Origin: a virus
Length of the DNA stretch: 26,475 bases
Direction: 5' to 3' (one strand)
Virus record (IMG/VR): IMGVR_UViG_3300017991_002649
Coordinates: 1-26,475 of that record
The position numbers and the translations under genes were made by a program. Positions 5,593 through 26,475 of the stretch are shown piece by piece. The notes under the pieces were generated by a model. It saw only the letters and a program-made list of their open reading frames with translations. It was not told the DNA's origin and did not search any database. Position 1 is the stretch's first letter. Each line of letters begins with the position of its first letter.

Positions 5593-6810
5593 TTAGACAA
5601 GCTCCGGCTTGCCAGAGTCTATCTTGACGAACCTTCCCCATTTGTAAGGAAATTCGTCACGTTCCAACTCAGTCGTCAAAACCCAAAGCGTAGGAATGCG
5701 ATAACGAGTGTTGATATTGGGGGCATAGAAGTCTGTGAAATAGATTAATGCATCAAACCGACGTTCAGTTGCAACCAAAACTGGTTCAAGATCAGTACCA
5801 CCTCGCCCATGAACTTCGCCTTTGAACTTACCCTTGAATTCGTACACACGACAAATTTTGCAATCAGCCTCATACATAGTTACAATTGCACCATTTTTCC
5901 AAATCCATTTGACCTCGTTGAAAAACAACTTCAGCTGATCATCGCTGATTGACCCTGAAGTGTCAACCGCAACAGCCAGATTCAAAACGTCTTCCTTGCG
6001 CGTTCCCGGACGCGTCCCGAAGCGTTTGCTGACCCGTTTCACCGTGTAGTCCAAGTTGCTTTCCGTTGCGCTTGCTGCAAACGTTCTCAAAACCTTGTTC
6101 CAAGGAATGATCGCCTTTTTCTTCCCCAATAGCATATCAACTTGTGAAATTACTTCTCCGGGAACGTCTCCGTAATCCTGATTGCACAAATCTCTTGCCT
6201 TGGAAACGATGTCTTTGCAAAATTCTTGAAGTAGAGGGTCTTGAGCTGCTGTTTTCCACATTTCGTGGGAACCAACTTCCTCCATCATCCCACCAGCGCC
6301 AAAAGCTCCTTGCTTGCATTGCTTTTTGTATTGCTGATTGTCTTTTAGATGCGTGTAATACCAGAATGCGCCCTTGCCAGATTCAAGATTGTATTTGTCC
6401 GGCAAACAGGCTCCCGGCGTCAAGTTTGAATGGTTGATATGACTGTTCACAGCAAGGTCGCAAGCGACATTCCCGCGCACGGGGTCGCTAAATTCCATCT
6501 TGATATGGTCAAAAATGATATGAAGCGTTTCATGTTCCAAGACGCCCTGAAGGAATGTATGGGCTTGCTCTTCGGTCTTCGCAATTTCAAATATATGCTT
6601 GATAAATTCTTCATTGACGTAAAGCTTAATCAACAGTTCATTCTGCTGCTTTCCAACGCCCATCGTTGGAATTCCGTATTTTGCAGCGCCGTAGACTTTG
6701 GTGAGCTGTTGTAAGATGTGACCATAGAAAATCTTGTGGCGAATGAGATCGACAATCCCCATCATTACTTCTTTTTGCGAGTTGATGCTTGATTTCTTTA
6801 CCACTGTCAT
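5593..6810 (-). CDS. VWA-like metallopeptidase (DUF2201 type), partner of a MoxR ATPase
   Basis: 405 residues, the normal size for the family. The N-terminal half has a zinc-peptidase motif HETLH at residues 93-97 inside a helix (LEHETLHIIFDH). The C-terminal half is a von Willebrand A-type domain: DTSGS at 283-287 is the metal-binding MIDAS, GRGGTD at 335-340 supplies the threonine, and TDF at 359-361 the later acidic site. In bacteria such proteins are usually encoded beside MoxR-type AAA+ ATPases and are thought to act with them in protein or complex remodelling. Here the probable ATPase is the gene at 15789-17099, about 9 kb upstream in transcription order. The ATG overlaps the previous stop (ATGA). 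The substrate is unknown. Confidence 0.82.
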   Translation of the reverse strand: MTVVKKSSINSQKEVMMGIVDLIRHKIFYGHILQQLTKVYGAAKYGIPTMGVGKQQNELLIKLYVNEEFIKHIFEIAKTEEQAHTFLQGVLEHETLHIIFDHIKMEFSDPVRGNVACDLAVNSHINHSNLTPGACLPDKYNLESGKGAFWYYTHLKDNQQYKKQCKQGAFGAGGMMEEVGSHEMWKTAAQDPLLQEFCKDIVSKARDLCNQDYGDVPGEVISQVDMLLGKKKAIIPWNKVLRTFAASATESNLDYTVKRVSKRFGTRPGTRKEDVLNLAVAVDTSGSISDDQLKLFFNEVKWIWKNGAIVTMYEADCKICRVYEFKGKFKGEVHGRGGTDLEPVLVATERRFDALIYFTDFYAPNINTRYRIPTLWVLTTELERDEFPYKWGRFVKIDSGKPELV

Positions 6811-9880: not shown

Positions 9881-9908
9881 ATTATACAACCCAGAGATAT
9901 TTTTTCAA
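9881..9908 (-). promoter_or_regulatory. Sigma70-like promoter (TTGAAA, 16 bp, TATAAT)
   Basis: The minus strand carries TTGAAA at 9908-9903 and, after a 16-base spacer, TATAAT at 9886-9881 in the shared context GGTTGTATAATA. It lies 23 bases after the radical SAM stop codon and drives the 8722-9711 gene and those behind it. It is the only one of the four TTGTATAAT copies with a good -35 hexamer. Confidence 0.75.
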
Positions 9909-9931: not shown

Positions 9932-11182
9932 TCAAGCCTTTGATGAGTCGTAATCGTAGATCAGATTTCCATTCGCATCTGCGTCTGGTCTTGGTTTTAA
10001 GATTCCTTCGTACATATAGTAAGGGCTTTGTCCTGCATTTGGATTATTCCACAACCAACGCATATAATCCTTGCAAGTATGATTCACAAATGATGCTGCT
10101 TTTTCCGCCGAGCCGCGATTCATTCCAATATTCAAACGCCAAAGGAACGTATCTGCATAAGCCAAGTGAGGATCAATATCATCCCACGTAACATAGCCAC
10201 GTTTCTTTGCAATCATCAACGCTTCGCACCATTGTCCTTTGGAATAACTTCCGGGCCAATCAGCAGGCAGTCCACAACAAGAACCATTATCGCAACGCTC
10301 TTTGAAATGAGCATCACTTACATAAAAGCGCATTCCTGCTTCGCGTGCCGCCTTTTGCATTTCATCGACATAAGGTCGCTTTGTGTTTCTGTTCAAACGC
10401 ATATAGCCCTGATTGTATGAATTCTTTACATAGTATTTCCAAACATCAAAGCCAGCGCACTCACTCATTATTTTTAGACGTTCGCGCAAAATCATTGAAC
10501 GCCTTTCACAACAAAAAAATTCTGTAGACACGGCCCCAGCGCCACGTTTGCCAGATTCTTTGATAAGTTCAATATGACCATTGTTGTGATTCGTAATCCC
10601 AATAATGAAAGGTCGCAATCGCAAAGTCGCGCCACCGCAATTCAAAGCAGTAATCTTTTCAAGGGCTTTAAGTCTTTCTTTTGTCGTAGGAACTCCCGGC
10701 TCAATTTTCTTTACAAAATCTTCATTTGTCATGATGATGCTGACTTTTACGTTCCAATTCTTTTGACCTTTGAATAGTTCCGTATAGCGAGGATCATCGA
10801 GCCACCAAACGCCCTTTGTGCTAAGGCACAATGGATAGTTTATTGCCTTGAAAAACCGTAACAACTCTAATCCAACGCCATACTTCTTTTCAAAATTACA
10901 AAACGGATCAGACAACGAACCCCATTGCATTGTCTTACCCATTCTAATAAATGGCCCAAATTGAGATTTTTCTGGATCGCAGAAATGTTTAACTACGCTT
11001 TCAATCTTAACAGGCTTGACCCTTTTTGCTAAGTAATTTTCTTTCCCGTCTCCAACGGCTCGCTGAAACGTACTGAAGCAATATAAACAGCCATATGAAC
11101 AATTTGAATATTGATCAAACGTCATCGGCATCGAGCAATCGGCAATTTCTGACGTCCACCTTGGTGCTTGATAATAATCCAT
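9932..11182 (-). CDS. Radical SAM enzyme, spore-photoproduct-lyase-like, in the DNA modification operon
   Basis: 416 residues. C28-x3-C32-x2-C35 (NCSYGCLYCF) is the classic ligand motif for the 4Fe-4S cluster that cleaves S-adenosylmethionine. SLSDPFCNFEKK at 89-100 resembles the D-P-x-x-x-x-E motif of the spore photoproduct lyase/Rv2578c branch. The C-terminal half has extra cysteines (C297, C302, C303, within ERCDNGSCCG; also C319 and C370), possibly a second metal centre. It is the last gene of a five-gene operon with PIG-L and glycosyltransferase genes, nine bases after the PIG-L stop. GGACG precedes the ATG. I infer radical chemistry on a DNA base or its sugar decoration; a DNA repair role is the alternative. 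Confidence 0.82.
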   Translation of the reverse strand: MDYYQAPRWTSEIADCSMPMTFDQYSNCSYGCLYCFSTFQRAVGDGKENYLAKRVKPVKIESVVKHFCDPEKSQFGPFIRMGKTMQWGSLSDPFCNFEKKYGVGLELLRFFKAINYPLCLSTKGVWWLDDPRYTELFKGQKNWNVKVSIIMTNEDFVKKIEPGVPTTKERLKALEKITALNCGGATLRLRPFIIGITNHNNGHIELIKESGKRGAGAVSTEFFCCERRSMILRERLKIMSECAGFDVWKYYVKNSYNQGYMRLNRNTKRPYVDEMQKAAREAGMRFYVSDAHFKERCDNGSCCGLPADWPGSYSKGQWCEALMIAKKRGYVTWDDIDPHLAYADTFLWRLNIGMNRGSAEKAASFVNHTCKDYMRWLWNNPNAGQSPYYMYEGILKPRPDADANGNLIYDYDSSKA

Positions 11183-11191
11183 AACGCGTCC

Positions 11192-11788
11192 TTATAGCAC
11201 TTGCCAAATATTCTTGAAACCTTCTGCTAACACCGCCCCACACATTGCTCCTCTTACACGCGCAAGCCCAAAAATCGCTTCTGCGCGACAGTACAATTTG
11301 TTTGCTTGCGTATGATAATGTTTTATGGCTTTTACTTTCCTTTCAACATCTTCCTTCTCTACCTCAACAAACACATCCGCTGCAAAAGAGAAATTACTTC
11401 TCAAAATTTCATAACCCCAAAGCGTTGTCCCTTTGAAAGCACGCTTTGCTTCTTCCAAACTTACTTGATGGTCTTGATGTAAGTCGTCTGGCGCTGGCGT
11501 AAAAACGACATCTAAATCCAATGTATCACGAGCACGTTCAAACGTGCGCAAGATACCAGCTCTTGACGACCAAAGATCGCGATGAGGAAAATTCAAAAGC
11601 TTTATATTCTCTTCCAAACCAAGTTCTTTTGCAGCCGCTTGAACTTCTGGTTCAATATCAAATTCGCTCCGATCAGTCAATGTTAATATTGATACCTTAC
11701 AGCCATTCCGTATTAATTTGGAAATAGTTGCCCCGCAACCTAATTCTGCATCGTCAGGATGGGGCGCAATGACTAAAACAGAATTCAT
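11192..11788 (-). CDS. PIG-L/LmbE-family N-deacetylase
   Basis: 198 residues from the ATG at 11788, whose ATGA overlaps the glycosyltransferase stop; a start four codons earlier is possible. The zinc-binding motif PHPDDAELGCG is at residues 9-19 and the second motif HQDH at 104-107, both complete, so the enzyme should be active. Family members remove acetyl groups from N-acetylglucosamine-containing substrates. With a glycosyltransferase translated just before it and no lipid or mycothiol genes nearby, the likely substrate is an N-acetyl sugar attached to a modified base in phage DNA, leaving a free amine. The family call is firm; the substrate is inferred. Confidence 0.88.
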   Translation of the reverse strand: MNSVLVIAPHPDDAELGCGATISKLIRNGCKVSILTLTDRSEFDIEPEVQAAAKELGLEENIKLLNFPHRDLWSSRAGILRTFERARDTLDLDVVFTPAPDDLHQDHQVSLEEAKRAFKGTTLWGYEILRSNFSFAADVFVEVEKEDVERKVKAIKHYHTQANKLYCRAEAIFGLARVRGAMCGAVLAEGFKNIWQVL

Positions 11789-12555
11789 TGGTTGGACCAT
11801 TCTTTCGGCACCCTCATCGTAAATTCATATGGAGAACTTGCGCGATTTCTTTTTGGGATAAGAAGACCTTTCCATTTATTCATCATGTAATTATACACTT
11901 CTTCTTCCAATCCGGATTTCTTCCACGTATCCATACAACCGCCTGCTGCCTTGCGATAGGTGTAGTCAGACCAAAGATAATCTAAACGTAAAACCCGACG
12001 TCCGCTGACTGCACATTGAAGCGTATAATCATAATCCTGTTTTACCCTGCATTTTTCATCAAACATCAATTCGCAACGCTTGATAATCATGCAATGACCT
12101 TCAACAAACGTGTTAATCGAATGCGGACGCTCTGGACGATAGTAAAATTCATTGGCCGTTGGAGATTCTCCAATGAGATAAAATCCACTTTTCTCTGCAA
12201 GATCAATAGCGTTAAACCATTCGTTCATGTGTTGCTTTGACGACCATTTGACCTTTTTCTTTTTGTCACCATCTGCTGTAAAATATCCAACGACCTTTAT
12301 ATCGTCATCAAGTTGGATTACCCAATCACCCATACTTATCTTTCGCATGATAATATTTCTGATTGGCGTAAGCCCGCCATCTTCAGTATGAGTCTCAATT
12401 TTTGCATTTGGTAAATGCTTTTTGTATTCCTCCAATTCGCGTTCATGAACAAATACCGTTGCGTCTGGGAACAAATTCCAAGTTGTCCCAGCTTCCGCTC
12501 GTTCTTTAGATGGGATTACAATAGAAACTTTCTTCCCGCTTTTTGTTTCATACAT
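11785..12555 (-). CDS. GT-A-fold glycosyltransferase, TET-associated (TAGT) type
   Basis: 256 residues. It has a Rossmann-like N-terminus (VSIVIPSKERA), VHERELEEYKKHLP with the 'VH-x-x-E-x-x-x-Y' pattern of the phage TAGT group, GLTPIRNIIM with R66-N67, and QLDDDI with D83-D85 as the metal/nucleotide-sugar binding acids. KQDYDY at 172-177 supplies later acidic residues. TAGT enzymes were defined as neighbours of TET/JBP base oxidases in phages and are thought to attach sugars to hydroxymethylated bases in DNA. No TET/JBP gene is in this window. The start ATG has AGGTG six bases upstream and follows the ParB stop by three bases. Alternative: a glycosyltransferase acting on a protein or small molecule. 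Confidence 0.75.
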   Translation of the reverse strand: MYETKSGKKVSIVIPSKERAEAGTTWNLFPDATVFVHERELEEYKKHLPNAKIETHTEDGGLTPIRNIIMRKISMGDWVIQLDDDIKVVGYFTADGDKKKKVKWSSKQHMNEWFNAIDLAEKSGFYLIGESPTANEFYYRPERPHSINTFVEGHCMIIKRCELMFDEKCRVKQDYDYTLQCAVSGRRVLRLDYLWSDYTYRKAAGGCMDTWKKSGLEEEVYNYMMNKWKGLLIPKRNRASSPYEFTMRVPKEWSNQ

Positions 12556-12558
12556 GGA

Positions 12559-13251
12559 TCACCTGTTAACTTCGTCAACATCTGAAGGAACATAGACGAC
12601 CTTATCGCCTTTGATACCCAACCGCTTCATCCAAAAGCTTTTCTCTTCATCAGTTGTGTAGGTAAGCAAAAAACGTCCTGCTCTGTCGTCAACGCCTTGA
12701 ATATCAAGTTTAGGTGGGCCTTGTACTTTTTCATCGTCGGACGATCCAGAAGAGTCTCCTGACAATTCTGTAGTTGGAATTTGAGATATTTCGCCCGAAT
12801 CAATTTGAGGCATTTCCAATTGGATTTCGTCAAACCCGAGATTTTCAGAAATGACCGGCATATCAACTTTGATAGACTTCAATATAGCATCAAGCTTTGT
12901 TCTATCCCACGACCCAGCGGCTTTGTCGTTGTTTAAGCTTACGTTCAAAGCTTTTTCTTTAGCCGAGTTTGGTTCAACCTCAACCCATGTGATGTCGTCA
13001 GGATGAATCCAGTCCTGACCCAAATTTTTAAGAGCCTTTATGCGTTGGTGCCCGCCAATAATACGATTCCCTTGTCTGTTCACGGTGATCGTTGACGTCA
13101 ATCGAAAGCCCTCACCACGTTCATCTTCTGGAATGGTATCAGTGTGTTCCTTGATTGAAGCTTTTAAGTTTTCCAGTTCTTCACTCCCAATTATCCTTGG
13201 GTTGTAATCAACAACGTTGAGTGATGTCAAGCCAATCTTTTTTGTGCTCAT
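12559..13251 (-). CDS. ParB/Srx-fold protein, copy 1
   Basis: 230 residues. The first 130 residues are a ParB-like nuclease/CTPase fold: YNPR at 16-19, then GGHQRIKALKNLGQDWIH at 66-83, which is the box II (G-x-H-R/Q-R) motif. A helical region with NNDKAAGSWDRTKLDAIL follows, as in many ParB-like phage proteins. The HTH part of chromosomal ParB is missing. A low-complexity linker (SGDSSGSSDDE) leads to a small C-terminal segment. The GGAGG five bases before the ATG is very good. It is about half identical over its N-terminal half to the gene upstream. Such domains bind CTP or ATP or cut DNA; here they probably act on DNA within the modification operon. Confidence 0.82.
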   Translation of the reverse strand: MSTKKIGLTSLNVVDYNPRIIGSEELENLKASIKEHTDTIPEDERGEGFRLTSTITVNRQGNRIIGGHQRIKALKNLGQDWIHPDDITWVEVEPNSAKEKALNVSLNNDKAAGSWDRTKLDAILKSIKVDMPVISENLGFDEIQLEMPQIDSGEISQIPTTELSGDSSGSSDDEKVQGPPKLDIQGVDDRAGRFLLTYTTDEEKSFWMKRLGIKGDKVVYVPSDVDEVNR

Positions 13252-13262
13252 AATTTCCTCCG

Positions 13263-14021
13263 TTAAGGCGCATCGTTAAAGCGTTCGCAAACAATCGTGA
13301 GCGCATCAGCACTCGTTTTCGCACTATATGTTTCTTTCGCCTTTTTGATGGCGGCTAAAATTTTTTGCCGTTGTTCTGCCGTCACCGCATACGACAGAGG
13401 GTAAAGTTGCGGCATATCCGACGGAACAACGGCTTTACCATCTGTCTCTTCCAATGGCTCTTCCAAAGCAGGACCATCTTCAAAAATGGGTTCTAAGTTG
13501 AATTCTGGTTTCCCCTCTGGCTCGTCCTTTCCAGATTTCTCGGGTTCCTTCTGCGGCAACATTTCTGCTACATCTACGTTTACTTTTTCAAGTTCAATAT
13601 ACGGCAAATCAAGTTTCTCATATAACGCTTCATCGTCAATTTTGATTCCCCGCAAAAGTTCATCAAGCTTTGGCTGATTCCAAAAACCTCCATAGCGTTC
13701 ACTATTGAGCGTTATGTTCAAAGACTTTTCTTTAGAGCTATCCGGTTTAACGTCTACCCAAGTTATATCTTTGACGTGAATCCAATCCTGTCCTAACGAC
13801 TTCAACGCTTTTATTCGTTGGTGTCCGCCAACAATACGATTCCCATTGACGTTGACCGTAACAGTGGTAGTCAGCCGGTAACCTTCGCCTCTTGTCTTCT
13901 TGGGAATAGCCTTGGTATGTTCTTTTATCGACGCCTTCAGACGTTCCAATTCTATATCGGTGATTAGGCGTGGATTGTAGGACAACGCCTGAAGCGTATC
14001 CAACGATACTTTCGTTTTCAT
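13263..14021 (-). CDS. ParB/Srx-fold protein, copy 2 (paralogue)
   Basis: 252 residues from the ATG at 14021, with GAGGAAAT directly upstream; a longer start at 14063 would begin upstream of the likely transcription start. The N-terminal 130 residues repeat copy 1 closely (YNPR at 15-18; GGHQRIKALKSLGQDWIH at 65-82; GFWNQPKLDELL). The C-terminal part differs: an acidic/proline linker and then a helical tail (TAEQRQKILAAIKKAKETY). The two genes are 11 bases apart and arose by tandem duplication. It is the first gene of the operon behind the 14074 promoter. The different tails suggest different partners. Confidence 0.82.
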   Translation of the reverse strand: MKTKVSLDTLQALSYNPRLITDIELERLKASIKEHTKAIPKKTRGEGYRLTTTVTVNVNGNRIVGGHQRIKALKSLGQDWIHVKDITWVDVKPDSSKEKSLNITLNSERYGGFWNQPKLDELLRGIKIDDEALYEKLDLPYIELEKVNVDVAEMLPQKEPEKSGKDEPEGKPEFNLEPIFEDGPALEEPLEETDGKAVVPSDMPQLYPLSYAVTAEQRQKILAAIKKAKETYSAKTSADALTIVCERFNDAP

Positions 14022-14073
14022 ATTTCCTCTGTCGAGAGAGATACTTGTCTCAACAATACGCAAATATAAAATT

Positions 14074-14101
14074 ATTATATGGTTTTCGGGAAGAAAATCA
14101 A
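14074..14101 (-). promoter_or_regulatory. Promoter of the hypermodification operon
   Basis: Minus-strand TTGATT at 14101-14096 and TATAAT at 14079-14074 are separated by exactly 16 bases. The -10 context is CCATATAAT rather than the TTGTATAAT of the four other promoters. It lies in the 89-base gap before the ParB paralogue, about 53 bases upstream of its ATG, and the previous gene ends only ten bases upstream of the -35. This makes 14021-9932 a separate transcription unit. Confidence 0.7.
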
Positions 14102-15594: not shown

Positions 15595-15792
15595 TTAGTG
15601 AATCGAAGCGTCCCCAGTCTGCGAGTCTTCGGATTCAATTATGTTAGTACTAAACTGAAGACGTTTTGCAGACACATCTTCATTAAACATTTCTACTGCT
15701 TCTTTGTGAGCCTTTTCTTCGTTGTATTCATCCAAGCGAATTTCGTAACAACTTGAAACTTCGACCACAAAGCGATAACGTCCTTCGCTCAT
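15595..15792 (-). CDS. Hypothetical 65-residue protein
   Basis: Small acidic protein with a beta-strand-rich start (GRYRFVVEVSSCYEIRLDEYNEEKAHKEAVEMF), a layout common in small phage proteins of the 'strand-strand-helix' kind. Its ATG overlaps the stop of the MoxR ATPase gene (ATGA), so the two are translated together. No motif points to a function. Confidence 0.7.
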   Translation of the reverse strand: MSEGRYRFVVEVSSCYEIRLDEYNEEKAHKEAVEMFNEDVSAKRLQFSTNIIESEDSQTGDASIH

Positions 15793-17099
15793 CGCAGCAT
15801 CTCCAAAATCTGTTCACGCAGCTTTTCATCCCCAATCAGCCACTTCTGATTGCGCCCGTCGTTTTCCGTGCGCTTGGAAAGACGTTTGCACAATGAGTGA
15901 CGAATGTCCGGAGGAACAACTTCGTTGGTGACGAACTTTTGGAAGTTTTTGATTCGCGCTGGCGTTTGCTCCGTTTCAGACTGAACCATCGTAGCAAAAA
16001 GTCGTTCGCAAGTGATGCCCAAAATATCCGTGCGCGGCTCCTTGCGCTTCATCAATTTCTTTACGCGGTCAGCAACGTTCTTCTTTCCATCAAGAACATC
16101 TTCCGGTTCAATGACGTCTTCCATATCCCTCGTGCAGAACACGAAAAACGCCGCAACCGTTTCTTCGTCCAAAAGGCTATGGGCGTGAACGGAAACGTCT
16201 TTGCGGATACCGCCACCGTCAAGGTCTTCAACGCTTGGAACGGTTTTCATGTACCGGAAAAACTCAGACAGCGTTCGCGGGTTGGTGCGCTCTTTCCCGA
16301 TCATCATTTCAGGGTCAAAGAGACAAAACGAAATTCCACGGGCATCAAGATTCTGCGACGTGGCCCATTCAGCCCACTGCTTGGCATCTTCCTGAAGCGT
16401 GATGTGTTTGATGCGCGTGATAATAGCCGCATCAATTGTCGTGACCAGATAATCCTGTTCATCAGGGTTGCCCGTCAAAACGATATTGCAACCGGGAGGC
16501 AATTTCCACGACACCATGCCGTAGTTCTGGAGCAACTGCATGATGCCCTTGATGATTCGGATGCTGGCGCGGTTGAAGTCATCCAGAAGCAAAATGGCAG
16601 GTCCGGGCTTGAGAGGTACCCAATCAGGCGGTGCCATAATCGTTCTCGGCGTGACGTTGGAATCAATCTGCCAACCGTCTTCCCTGAAGGCAACAACGGT
16701 CTGTTCGCGCTGCGGCACCCACTGCTCTTTCCTTTCAGAGTCCGGGCCTTTGCCCTCAATTTTGTACATCAGGATGCAGTCCATCGGAATGCCGTGAAGG
16801 TCGCCCATTTCTTCAAACTGCGCAATTGGAACATCGCGGATGTCCCAACCATCATACTTCTTGCCACGCCATTCGACGGGCGTGTTTTTGAGTTGTTTTA
16901 CCAAAGCCGTTTTCCCGATGCCGGGATGCCCCCAGATACACTGGGCAAAACGCGGCTGACCACTTTGTTCATTGATGTCGTTCAGCTCGAAATTTGTCGT
17001 GATGAAAGAGAGCAGTCGATCATACTTCACGCGCTGACCATAACAACCTTCGTACGTCTTTTCTTGTTCATTGATTTTCTTTTCTCTACGTCTCGCCAT
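15789..17099 (-). CDS. MoxR-type AAA+ ATPase
   Basis: 436 residues from the ATG at 17099 (AGGA six bases upstream); an ATG five codons earlier overlaps the previous stop by ATGA and is also possible. Walker A GHPGIGKT is at 57-64, Walker B AILLLDDFNRA at 168-178 and sensor 1 VLTGNPDE at 207-214, followed by arginine-rich ITRIKHITL. This is the layout of MoxR-family ring ATPases, which remodel complexes together with VWA-domain partners. The matching partner is probably the VWA metallopeptidase at 5593-6810. The C-terminal 130 residues are charged and helical without a known domain. The phage substrate is unknown. Confidence 0.85.
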   Translation of the reverse strand: MARRREKKINEQEKTYEGCYGQRVKYDRLLSFITTNFELNDINEQSGQPRFAQCIWGHPGIGKTALVKQLKNTPVEWRGKKYDGWDIRDVPIAQFEEMGDLHGIPMDCILMYKIEGKGPDSERKEQWVPQREQTVVAFREDGWQIDSNVTPRTIMAPPDWVPLKPGPAILLLDDFNRASIRIIKGIMQLLQNYGMVSWKLPPGCNIVLTGNPDEQDYLVTTIDAAIITRIKHITLQEDAKQWAEWATSQNLDARGISFCLFDPEMMIGKERTNPRTLSEFFRYMKTVPSVEDLDGGGIRKDVSVHAHSLLDEETVAAFFVFCTRDMEDVIEPEDVLDGKKNVADRVKKLMKRKEPRTDILGITCERLFATMVQSETEQTPARIKNFQKFVTNEVVPPDIRHSLCKRLSKRTENDGRNQKWLIGDEKLREQILEMLR

Positions 17100-17110
17100 T
17101 TTTCTTCCTT

Positions 17111-17605
17111 TCATTCAATTTCAAATTTCACGCTCATTGTTTCCTCTTCCCTCACGTTATTTGCGAGCACTTCCGGAGAATCTACTTCTTTGCAATATGC
17201 TTTGAAACCCTTCGGATCAACCTTGAATTTCTTTCCAAAGGTAAAACCCTTTTGATCGAGTAGCATGACAAGCTCCCCAAGCCGCTCTGTAGAAACATTG
17301 ACCTTCACTTCTGCCTTGACGACGTTTGCAAATTTGCCTTTTGACAGTTCACCTTCAAATTCCTTCTGCGCTTCATCGTTAGGCAACTTCAATTCATAAG
17401 CAATTCTTTTGGATACCACCGCACAAGCTTTTGTGCCTTCCAACCGAACACTTTTCTCGTCAGCTTCAAAGTCGGCCTTATTACAAAGAATTGCTTTTGT
17501 GCCTTGCAATTCCAACGCAACATTCTTCGCCGTTTGATCCAGCCGCGCACCATTGTCGATCAGCGTTGCTGTTTTGTCATCCACAGAAGCAGTCCTGATT
17601 GCCAT
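17111..17605 (-). CDS. Hypothetical 164-residue protein upstream of the MoxR gene
   Basis: The start at the ATG at 17605 is supported by GGGAG seven bases upstream. The first 70 residues look like repeated short beta strands (TATLIDNGARLDQTAKNVALEL, then VRLEGTKACAVVSKRIAYEL). A region starting near residue 100 (VKAEVKVNVSTERLGELVMLLDQKGFTFGKKFKVDP) could form a small alpha/beta domain. No catalytic motif is seen. It sits between the half-ABC ATPase and the MoxR gene with minimal gaps and may belong to either system. Confidence 0.7.
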   Translation of the reverse strand: MAIRTASVDDKTATLIDNGARLDQTAKNVALELQGTKAILCNKADFEADEKSVRLEGTKACAVVSKRIAYELKLPNDEAQKEFEGELSKGKFANVVKAEVKVNVSTERLGELVMLLDQKGFTFGKKFKVDPKGFKAYCKEVDSPEVLANNVREEETMSVKFEIE

Positions 17606-20752: not shown

Positions 20753-20942
20753 GTACCTTCCTTTTAATTTCTTCAACACAACATGGACAAAGCGTTAAAT
20801 CTTCATCCCATTTTTTAGGATTGTCAGGATATTCGTAACATGTAGCACAAAGACGAAAACCACACTCTTGACAAACATAGTCTTCAAAAAGCGCATTCGC
20901 TGGAGTAACTTCTCCGCATTCAGCACATTTCATTTCACTCAT
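20742..20942 (-). CDS. Small zinc-ribbon/RING-like protein
   Basis: 66 residues with many paired cysteines: CAECGE, then CQECGFRLCATCYEYP, then LCPCCVEE. This gives at least two zinc-binding knuckle pairs and looks like a double zinc ribbon. The ATG overlaps the previous stop (TGATG), and the stop overlaps the next gene by 11 bases. Partner or target unknown. Confidence 0.72.
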   Translation of the reverse strand: MSEMKCAECGEVTPANALFEDYVCQECGFRLCATCYEYPDNPKKWDEDLTLCPCCVEEIKRKVHDE

Positions 20943-21829
20943 CACGCACCCGCTTTTTCACAAAGTTCCTTAATCCTGCGCATGTAACGCATCAATTTGC
21001 CTTCTGAAACCACTGCCTCAGACAACGACCCGTAATGATGTTCGAGACAGTCCATGAGCAATTCTTTGATTGCCTCTTCATCCGGCAACTGCTGAAGCTT
21101 GGAACGTGTGTAAAGCGACTCCAAATCCTTTTCTTTTGTCGCATACCATTCTTCAATCCGCTCTAACGACCACTCGCCACGGCGAATTTCCTTGAGCTGC
21201 TCGCGATTGCGTTCAAGGTTGATATCGCCTTCCGCCATGATCTGTTCGATTTCGTCAAGCAGCCTGACGATGTTGTAACAAAACTTCGTATCAAATCCGT
21301 ATTTGTCTACGAGTTCTTTCCGCTTGCCTTCTGGTTCTTTGTTCTTCGCCTTCTTGAGCTGCGAGCCAGCGTAGTTTTTGAAGCGGTGCCAGCTGCCTTT
21401 GTGCAAGAATATTTTCCGTTTCTCCCGCACGATGCTTCCAACCTGCGTACAATGCAAGATACAGCGTTGCGGCACAAACAAAGAGTCAATGACGTTTGGG
21501 TTATTGTTCATCAACAAATTGAAGTACTTGATGATACTGAAAATCTGAAAGTCAAACTCTGTATTTTGCTCTTTGTCTTTGACCCCGTGCTCTTGCCACT
21601 GATTGAATTTCTCCGGCTGCGTTCCAAAATTGGGAATATACCCAGCAATGTGCGGAAAGATCATATGCTTGGGCGGGATACAAAACCCGTAAAGGTCCAC
21701 ATCACTTGAATCAGAATGACATCCATAAGCGATGCTACCCATCATCGTCAAGTAATGAGTATTGCTGATCACAAACCCCGGTGGATGGATCAATTTCTTA
21801 TCAGCTAACTTGCGCAAATCAACTTTCAT
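20942..21829 (-). CDS. RlaP-like nucleotidyltransferase (DNA polymerase beta superfamily)
   Basis: 295 residues. MGSIAYGCHSDSSDVDLYG at residues 30-48 is the catalytic loop: G31-S32 followed by the metal-binding pair D43 and D45. The sequence then runs through ...FDFQIFSIIKYFNLLMNNNPNVIDSLF, typical of the COG3541/RlaP branch, which has been linked to RNA repair. The C-terminal half is helical (FCYNIVRLLDEIEQIM...). The AAGGTG site is close to the ATG. Together with a CCA-adding enzyme 4 kb upstream it suggests that this phage edits RNA ends, but the substrate is not shown by the sequence. Confidence 0.75.
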   Translation of the reverse strand: MKVDLRKLADKKLIHPPGFVISNTHYLTMMGSIAYGCHSDSSDVDLYGFCIPPKHMIFPHIAGYIPNFGTQPEKFNQWQEHGVKDKEQNTEFDFQIFSIIKYFNLLMNNNPNVIDSLFVPQRCILHCTQVGSIVREKRKIFLHKGSWHRFKNYAGSQLKKAKNKEPEGKRKELVDKYGFDTKFCYNIVRLLDEIEQIMAEGDINLERNREQLKEIRRGEWSLERIEEWYATKEKDLESLYTRSKLQQLPDEEAIKELLMDCLEHHYGSLSEAVVSEGKLMRYMRRIKELCEKAGA

Positions 21830-25148: not shown

Positions 25149-26475
25149 TCAACGACTATATCTTTCAAGCACCTGTTTCTTTGCTTCGTCCTTCTTCAAC
25201 GCTTTTCCTTTTGCGGCATAGTCCTCTTCCAACTCAATCAGAAACCGCGACACGTCCCCAACAAGCGGTCCCGGCTTCACGTTCAGTATTTGCATAATTT
25301 CTTTGCCGTCCAACACTGGCTTTTTTGAAACGGGTAACGGAGACTTTCTGATATCATCAATCATGCGCCTCAGATTGGGAGCATAATTCTGCGGCGGCAA
25401 CTTTCCGATCGCATCCGCCTCTGCCAAGTCAATCAACGCATCAATAGATTCATCACCAATCTTGCGGACAAAGCGACGCAATACTTTCTGCACACGCGCT
25501 GAATCGCCCTTGTTTGATTTTATCATATCATCAATTCGATGTGGCCGCATATGATTTTCAACCAATTTGCGAACAGTATTGATCGTACGACTGTCAAACT
25601 TCAGCCTACGCAAAATTGCTTCCGCGATTTCACCAGACACTTTTTCATGGCCATGGAATGAAATCCCGTTTCCAAATATCTGCTGCGTCTTTGCCTTTCC
25701 AACGTCATGCAACAACGCCGCCATCTGAGCCTCTACCGTTGGCTTTGCGTTTTTCAATACCATCATAGTATGTTTGAATACGTTTCCTTCTGCATGTTGC
25801 TTCGGCGACTGCTTGACTTTTGTAAGCTCATCCACTTCTGGAAGTACATATTTGAGTAAACCTGTTATCTTCATTAATCGAATTGCTTTGTTCAGTTTGC
25901 CCAATTTCATTACCTTTTCAAGTTCTCCCATAATGCGTTCAGGCGACACAATTTGAATTCGTTTTGCATTGCGTTTGACAATGCGTAACACATCCATTGG
26001 AATGTCCCATCCGTATTTCGTTTGGAACCGGATCAAACGTATCATTCGCAACGGGTCGTTCATGAAAATCTTATCAAGCGAAACGCCGGGATGACCGCGC
26101 AAGATTCCTTTCTTCAAATCATTCTTACTCACTCCGGTCAAGTCTTTGATTTCACCGTTTGTCAAATCTTTCATCAACATGTTGACGGTAAAATCTCGGC
26201 GTTTAACGTCCTGCTCAAGCGTTCCATATTCAGTTTGTCGTTGTCTGCTTTCTGGGTCAGGAAAACTCTCAGTCATCGTATCGGCAAATTCAAGAACCGC
26301 GCCTTTGGTTTTATACGTCTTACCCTCATAAGAAATATCTTCTTTGAAAGCAATCTGCCAAATAGGATAACCAGCGCCCAATTGCCTCGGAGTAGAAACT
26401 GCTTTGCCCAATTCCTTCTTAATCAACTTAGTAAGTTTTTCAGCGCCACCCTTCATCTCTACAACAACGTCAAGG
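25149..26475 (-). CDS. Class II CCA-adding enzyme/poly(A) polymerase with HD domain (5' end outside the window)
   Basis: The visible 441 residues begin LDVVVEMKGG; the frame stays open to the edge, so the ATG at 26456 is internal and the N-terminal 'GG-x-x-R-D ... D-x-D' part lies outside. Visible class II nucleotidyltransferase motifs (fragment numbering): RRDFTVNM at 92-99, DPLRMIRLIRF at 140-150 and ISPERI-like VSPERI near 176. A C-terminal HD phosphohydrolase domain follows, with FKHT and ALLHDVGKAKT (H256-D257) and SFHGHEK. This arrangement is found in bacterial tRNA nucleotidyltransferases that also carry 2',3'-phosphatase or phosphodiesterase activity. A phage copy would mature phage or damaged tRNAs. 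No tRNA gene is seen in the window. Confidence 0.85.
   Translation of the reverse strand, partial: LDVVVEMKGGAEKLTKLIKKELGKAVSTPRQLGAGYPIWQIAFKEDISYEGKTYKTKGAVLEFADTMTESFPDPESRQRQTEYGTLEQDVKRRDFTVNMLMKDLTNGEIKDLTGVSKNDLKKGILRGHPGVSLDKIFMNDPLRMIRLIRFQTKYGWDIPMDVLRIVKRNAKRIQIVSPERIMGELEKVMKLGKLNKAIRLMKITGLLKYVLPEVDELTKVKQSPKQHAEGNVFKHTMMVLKNAKPTVEAQMAALLHDVGKAKTQQIFGNGISFHGHEKVSGEIAEAILRRLKFDSRTINTVRKLVENHMRPHRIDDMIKSNKGDSARVQKVLRRFVRKIGDESIDALIDLAEADAIGKLPPQNYAPNLRRMIDDIRKSPLPVSKKPVLDGKEIMQILNVKPGPLVGDVSRFLIELEEDYAAKGKALKKDEAKKQVLERYSR

Follow-up and report, generated by a model that had tools for sequence, protein, structure and literature searches.

A minus-strand viral operon of ParB, TAGT, PIG-L and radical SAM genes: a probable DNA hypermodification system

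The operon and its products

The IMG/VR virus record IMGVR_UViG_3300017991_002649 was analysed over its whole 26,475 bases (the window), which represent a fragment rather than a full genome. Five co-oriented genes on its minus strand, in the order ParB1, ParB2, TAGT, PIG-L and a radical S-adenosylmethionine enzyme (rSAM), form what is very probably a DNA hypermodification operon. Genes were called from the open reading frame (ORF) list of the window; TAGT and PIG-L were identified by Pfam hits, the two ParB-like proteins by PHROG matches and by a ParB family hidden Markov model (HMM) of our own.

14074–14101, minus strand: promoter-like site upstream of the operon, TTGATT-16-TATAAT (10/12 consensus)
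13263–14020, minus strand: ParB-like protein 1 (PHROG ParB/DNA-methyltransferase-associated families, E 1e-15; own ParB family HMM, E 1.7e-29)
12559–13251, minus strand: ParB-like protein 2, a paralogue of ParB1 (PHROG ParB families, E 1e-19; own ParB HMM, E 1e-42)
11785–12555, minus strand: TAGT-family GT-A glycosyltransferase (PF20691, E 1.4e-12, over the Pfam cut-off)
11192–11800, minus strand: PIG-L/LmbE-type N-acetyl-sugar deacetylase (PF02585, E 9.2e-18; HPDDAE and HQDH motifs)
9932–11182, minus strand: rSAM with a fold like that of spore photoproduct lyase (SPL) (PF04055, E 1.4e-4, under the Pfam cut-off; CxxxCxxC motif; AlphaFold2 fold)
9881–9908, minus strand: promoter-like site of the next transcription unit, TTGAAA-16-TATAAT (11/12 consensus)

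The original prediction had proposed a five-gene operon with these identities, on which ORFs, Pfam and PHROG matches and predicted fold agree. The closeness of the genes was also borne out, with gaps of 11 nt (ParB1-ParB2), 3 nt (ParB2-TAGT) and 9 nt (PIG-L-rSAM); TAGT and PIG-L overlap by 16 nt, or by only 4 nt if PIG-L begins at its second ATG (11788). ParB1 is likelier to start at the ATG at 14020, with the ribosome-binding site GAGGAAAT upstream, than at the TTG at 14063 that had been chosen earlier. Neither ParB-like protein has a Pfam match at E 1e-3. The two promoter-like sites that had been proposed are present and are the strongest two minus-strand matches of the promoter scan (14101–14074 and 9908–9881), but the number of such matches (13, against 10.4 ± 3.5 expected) is not above chance.

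With phmmer the rSAM had no match among PDB sequences, and structure prediction was therefore used. The AlphaFold2 model (pLDDT 92.3) has SPL as its top PDB fold match (E 7e-9; TM-score 0.48–0.58; 14–16% identity) and also matches PFL-AE and viperin. SPL is itself a radical SAM enzyme acting on thymine in DNA. Both the CxxxCxxC [4Fe-4S] motif and the partial TIM barrel of the radical SAM superfamily are present. The cluster cysteines (C28, C32, C35) and three further cysteines (C16, C302, C303) are kept in 99–100% of 111 rSAM relatives, the cluster cysteines in all but one member, and a single relative (L027) lacks the C302-C303 pair.

TAGT retains its DDD and ED motifs, and its model (pLDDT 92.9) adopts a GT-A fold, nearest among solved structures to RmlT and TarP/TarS. 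TarP and TarS are N-acetylglucosamine (GlcNAc) transferases, and the likeness of the modelled fold to them would fit an N-acetylhexosamine donor, although it does not show one. The HPDDAE and HQDH metal/catalytic motifs of PIG-L are common to its homologues in locus L015 and Vibrio phage PG28, and H14, D16, D17, E19 and H108–H111 are invariant among the homologues compared. The PG28 homologue lies in one run of genes by the terminase (L044:7001-13005), together with two WbqC-like proteins, a methyltransferase, a group-1 glycosyltransferase and a ParB, perhaps an independent sugar-type DNA modification cluster.

Cassettes around the rSAM and TAGT families

As single-protein queries against viral contigs, TAGT and PIG-L gave no confirmed relatives, so searches were run with alignments of the rSAM, TAGT and ADDT families. 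The window rSAM led directly to 40 viral contigs and the alignment search to at least 261 viral relatives, of which 80 were kept. No match to the rSAM family was found in 50,697 phage records, and its matches in cellular genomes are two contigs assembled as Bacteroidota metagenome-assembled genomes.

Within 4 kb of the rSAM gene a ParB is found in 63 of about 103 loci, and P-loop kinase, GNAT, ADDT, TAGT and S-adenosylmethionine synthetase genes also occur around it. The synthetase lies within 4 kb in 22 of these loci (L005:1015-2067 and 21 others) and in none of the TET or thymidylate synthase (TS) ADDT loci. The kinase family beside the rSAM is homologous to the 5-hydroxymethyldeoxyuridine (5hmdU) DNA kinase of phage M6 (hhalign E 3.9e-14). 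In the ADDT set, 18 of 20 sequences match PF18724 at E ≤ 0.01 (best 4e-23); compared with the M6 ADDT by hhalign, the narrow ADDT set was negative (E 0.038) and a broader set matched (E 1.4e-5). The ADDT locus search was run with the narrower alignment.

Scored within 5 kb, the tailoring genes divide 109 rSAM loci into 33 with TAGT only, 55 with kinase/ADDT only, one with both and 20 with neither. The window belongs to the TAGT type, and its gene order is that of five other loci (L003, L017, L083, L101, L102) save for the inserted PIG-L. Beside TAGT in such cassettes a two-part protein recurs (L057:910-1998; also L011, L014, L018 and L084), with a phosphoheptose-isomerase-like PHROG match and a weak APH-kinase match, and it may serve sugar supply. 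The tailoring modules are exchanged around one rSAM: the two cassette types are intermixed in the rSAM tree, where at least 16 gains or losses of each label are needed to account for the well supported branches, and rSAMs of opposite cassette type can be 92–93% identical (L057/L063 and L011/L098). Because of this intermixing and identity, the rSAM substrate would be common to both routes. These sequence comparisons suggest that one rSAM activity serves both cassettes, acting on something that both need rather than on the appended amino acid or sugar.

Base hypermodification, the function originally predicted, agrees with these neighbourhoods, in which rSAM relatives adjoin TET/JBP, ADDT, 5hmdU-kinase-like and TAGT genes. 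A cell-wall or small-molecule setting for the glycosyltransferase and PIG-L, with no DNA-modification neighbours in related phages, had been named as the outcome that would speak against it; in 80 TAGT loci sampled independently with TAGT as query, a ParB adjoins TAGT in 71 and TET/JBP is present in 12. In these loci (L170-L249) the ParB is directly upstream of TAGT, often by terminase subunits, and most are without a recognisable TET/JBP, rSAM or TS. ParB is also found near ADDT where an rSAM or TET is present, and was not found in TS-type ADDT loci. Since it accompanies TAGT and the rSAM- and TET-type ADDT loci but not the TS type, this distribution suggests that ParB goes with modification carried out in DNA, as a probable targeting factor.

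PIG-L is a rare accessory, present in 2 of 49 rSAM records and in none of the 80 TAGT loci. The TAGT and PIG-L pairing was found again once, in L015 (61.6 kb, with a 102-bp terminal repeat), which carries an rSAM, a second rSAM with a SPASM domain, a TAGT and an overlapping PIG-L gene and is the closest parallel to the window operon.

Source of the hydroxymethyl group

Hydroxymethyl pyrimidines arise either in the nucleotide pool, through TS-family hydroxymethylases, or in DNA, through oxygen-dependent TET/JBP enzymes. We know of no enzymes making this chemical handle outside these two unrelated families. 5hmdU is what the kinase and ADDT work on in characterised phages (PMC6449724), and in phage phiW-14 it is made by a phage synthase from dUMP (PMC5977210).

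Of 79 viral loci sampled with ADDT as query, 78 were scored, and the three candidate suppliers are mutually exclusive among them: 60 have the rSAM, six TET/JBP, three the TS family, nine none of these, and none has two. The nine are mostly cut by a contig end or lie on very short contigs. A fourth TS record is L266, where the gene (PF00303) is outside the fetched stretch, elsewhere in the record. The exclusion has a Fisher probability of 2.7e-7, which becomes 6.7e-4 once the set is thinned at 70% ADDT identity; relatedness is not fully removed from either value. Pfam confirmed five of the six TET/JBP assignments (E 3e-19 to 4e-25) and two of the three TS assignments (E 2e-26 and 8e-27). The rSAM is absent throughout the TET- and TS-type ADDT records, in a search whose positive control matched. 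All 11 diverse ADDT isolates tested carry PF00303 and none carries the rSAM family; conversely, PF00303 occurs in one of 49 rSAM records and in none of ten rSAM-ADDT records, while TET is absent from 47 of the 49. Five rSAM records with terminal repeats or shared end sequence (L015, L033, L053, L103, L105) are probably complete, and all are without TS and TET. Comparison of these loci points to the rSAM as a replacement, it seems, for the enzyme making the hydroxymethyl handle in ADDT loci.

The single TS-bearing rSAM record of the 49 is L027 (L027:9959-15444), whose rSAM is the one without the C302-C303 pair.

The scarcity of PF00303 in rSAM records was also considered as evidence for TAGT cassettes and was dropped, since TAGT records, nearly all of them without the rSAM family, lack it too (0/34); the argument is made from the ADDT comparison only. 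No alternative hydroxylase stood out near TAGT loci with no supplier, whose conserved neighbours, where they could be annotated, are terminase subunits, helix-turn-helix proteins and a sigma factor.

The window was said in the original prediction to carry no TET/JBP, and the TET model built here matched no TET/JBP oxygenase (PF12851) in it. It also has no match to a 5hmdU DNA kinase or ADDT down to E 0.1. For TS there was neither a match to the M6 enzyme (phmmer, ORFs) nor a family hit in the scans of this fragment, which did not include a search with the PF00303 model.

Proposed reactions, alternatives and known systems

The following scheme is our inference as to what the rSAM does, which base and sugar are involved, in what order the steps run and what ParB is for. 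The SPL-like rSAM would abstract hydrogen from the C5-methyl group of thymine in DNA, and the thymine radical would be oxidised and hydroxylated, probably by water, giving 5-hydroxymethyluracil (5hmU) with no need for oxygen. It would thus stand in for the TET/JBP dioxygenases or the TS-family dUMP hydroxymethylase. TAGT would then glycosylate the 5-hydroxymethylpyrimidine in DNA, attaching a hexose (N-acetylhexosamine is likely) to its hydroxymethyl group to form a base-J-like nucleotide; deacetylation by PIG-L would turn the sugar into a positively charged amino sugar, and the paired ParB proteins would bring the enzymes to their sites. A handle-making role for the rSAM on thymine is consistent with the SPL-like fold, with thymine as natural substrate of that fold, with the three extra conserved cysteines and with the S-adenosylmethionine synthetase genes, which occur in rSAM loci and were absent from the TET and TS ADDT loci. 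The acceptor base, which the original prediction had left open, is most likely 5hmU.

That the rSAM supplies the handle has, in our estimate, about an even chance. The same applies to the reading of the whole cassette as handle supplier, tailoring enzymes and ParB, with the rSAM as 5hmU-maker beside TAGT, PIG-L and ParB. The broader proposal is more tentative and falls a little short of evens: that the rSAM family is a third, oxygen-independent source of 5hmU in DNA, displacing TET/JBP and dUMP hydroxymethylase in hundreds of phages and feeding interchangeable tailoring modules that add an amino acid or, here, an amino sugar as a base-J-like hexosaminyl nucleotide.

Several observations weigh against the rSAM as supplier. 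Its chemistry is predicted, from sequence comparison and models. Both tailoring modules occur together in L016 and in L282, a second such locus found later. In one lineage (L006, L008, L009) TET, rSAM and TAGT coexist; TET is also present in the sister L199, but there the rSAM is missing. None of TET, rSAM and TS is seen in most TAGT loci, so a missing alternative supplier says little by itself for TAGT cassettes; the complete phage record Javan291 combines ParB-TAGT with no gene of these three kinds. Such loci imply a further supplier or, failing that, different acceptors for TAGT. Phage M6 pairs an SPL-like rSAM of distant homology (hhalign probability 94.8, E 5e-8) with a TS-family gene; the presence of such an rSAM in a modification cluster therefore does not by itself mark it as the supplier. 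The contigs are mostly fragmentary, and a supplier may lie elsewhere in the window's genome.

The gene order of the L006 lineage is ParB-TET/JBP-ParB-rSAM-TAGT-rSAM(SPASM) (L006:7764-12994, with L008 and L009); L199 is without the first rSAM.

The original prediction placed the rSAM last: TAGT adds a sugar to a hydroxymethyl base that comes from elsewhere, PIG-L deacetylates that sugar, and the resulting amino sugar is finally remodelled by the rSAM, much as AprD4-type enzymes act on aminoglycosides. The first part of this order is plausible, and the coupled TAGT-PIG-L pair appears again in L015. Gene order and the intact PIG-L catalytic motifs agree with the scheme, and the rSAM fold matches include AprD4 (E 1e-4), which works as a diol dehydratase on paromamine. 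Its last step fared worse: rSAM orthologues at 92–93% identity sit in cassettes with no glycosyltransferase, PIG-L is too rare among rSAM records (2/49) and the rSAM substitutes for TET/JBP or the TS family in ADDT loci, which makes the scheme unlikely. We consider equally unlikely a tailoring rSAM, an isomerase or C-C bond former like that of M6, working after the handle on a structure common to both cassettes. The M6 rSAM is reportedly an isomerase acting on an amino-acid adduct (Lee et al. 2022), and the distant homology to it noted above speaks for this idea, as may the best viral fold match, a protein of 469 aa that has the same length as, and may be identical with, a Rhizobium phage RHph_I65 protein near kinase, ADDT and TS. 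Such an enzyme should co-occur with TET or TS, however, which it does not in ADDT loci, and TAGT cassettes are without an amino-acid transferase to make its substrate.

Cytosine could be the base instead, if the rSAM, or an unseen C5-methyltransferase plus oxidation, gave 5-hydroxymethylcytosine for TAGT to glycosylate. TAGTs were named for their association with TET, and PHROG annotates the family as HMC glucosyltransferase; the same rSAM, however, also belongs to ADDT/5hmdU-kinase cassettes, and 5hmdU is what their characterised members use (PMC6449724); moreover, the SPL-like fold acts on thymine, leaving cytosine a rather improbable choice. Hardly probable at all is a cell-surface glycan or small-molecule pathway for the glycosyltransferase and PIG-L, with the rSAM as an SPL-type DNA-repair enzyme. 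The nearest solved glycosyltransferase folds are indeed wall-teichoic-acid enzymes (RmlT, TarP, TarS), but those matches are generic to GT-A (TMq about 0.5), and the company of TAGT with ParB and TET/JBP, and of the rSAM with ADDT and kinase, points to DNA.

If the rSAM does make 5hmU, radical SAM enzymes would gain a new reaction on DNA, and the origin of the handle would be explained in those rSAM and ADDT phages that have neither known supplier. The route would allow hydroxymethyl chemistry in anaerobic hosts (the two cellular-genome matches are from Bacteroidota), and it predicts glycosylated, possibly amino-sugar, 5hmU in phage DNA.

Elsewhere in the window are an RlaP-family RNA-repair nucleotidyltransferase (20942–21829) and a CCA-adding/poly(A) polymerase-like protein with an HD domain (25149–26456). 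A VWA/metallopeptidase-like DUF2201 protein (5593–6810) and an AAA ATPase (15789–17114; phrog_1297) perhaps form a MoxR-VWA-type pair. Scans for Rfam families and tRNAs gave no match in the window.

A literature search that did not reach Iyer 2013, Lee 2018/2022 or Burke 2021 returned no account of an rSAM source of hydroxymethyl groups. The gene set, which had been thought perhaps undescribed, differs from every described set that was found. Its ParB-ParB-TAGT-rSAM order recurs in other viral contigs. The kind of system, phage base hypermodification, is known, and the possible rSAM reaction is the new part.

The closest known systems share parts of it. In M6/ViI-type thymidine hypermodification the kinase and transferase have homologues adjoining the rSAM relatives, and M6 itself has an SPL-like rSAM; the window has TAGT and PIG-L instead of kinase and transferase, and the TS-family enzyme present in each of the 11 isolates tested is missing from rSAM cassettes. 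SPL has a similar fold and the CxxxCxxC cluster, whereas the rSAM has the extra conserved C16, C302 and C303 and sits in modification operons. Bacillithiol, mycothiol, aminoglycoside and GPI biosynthesis use GlcNAc transfer followed by deacetylation to give a glucosaminyl product; the window pair differs from those glycosyltransferase and PIG-L pairs in that its acceptor would be DNA. CmoX/CmoY cytosine hypermodification likewise combines a phage base handle with a tailoring enzyme, and has ParBc genes on many contigs, but uses carboxymethylcytosine chemistry and no rSAM (PMC12783734). The TET/JBP and TAGT phage clusters, and kinetoplastid base J (JBP and JGT), have TAGT, ParB and a handle maker in one operon and a predicted glycosyloxymethyl pyrimidine as product; the window operon is without TET/JBP, has the rSAM in its place and adds PIG-L.

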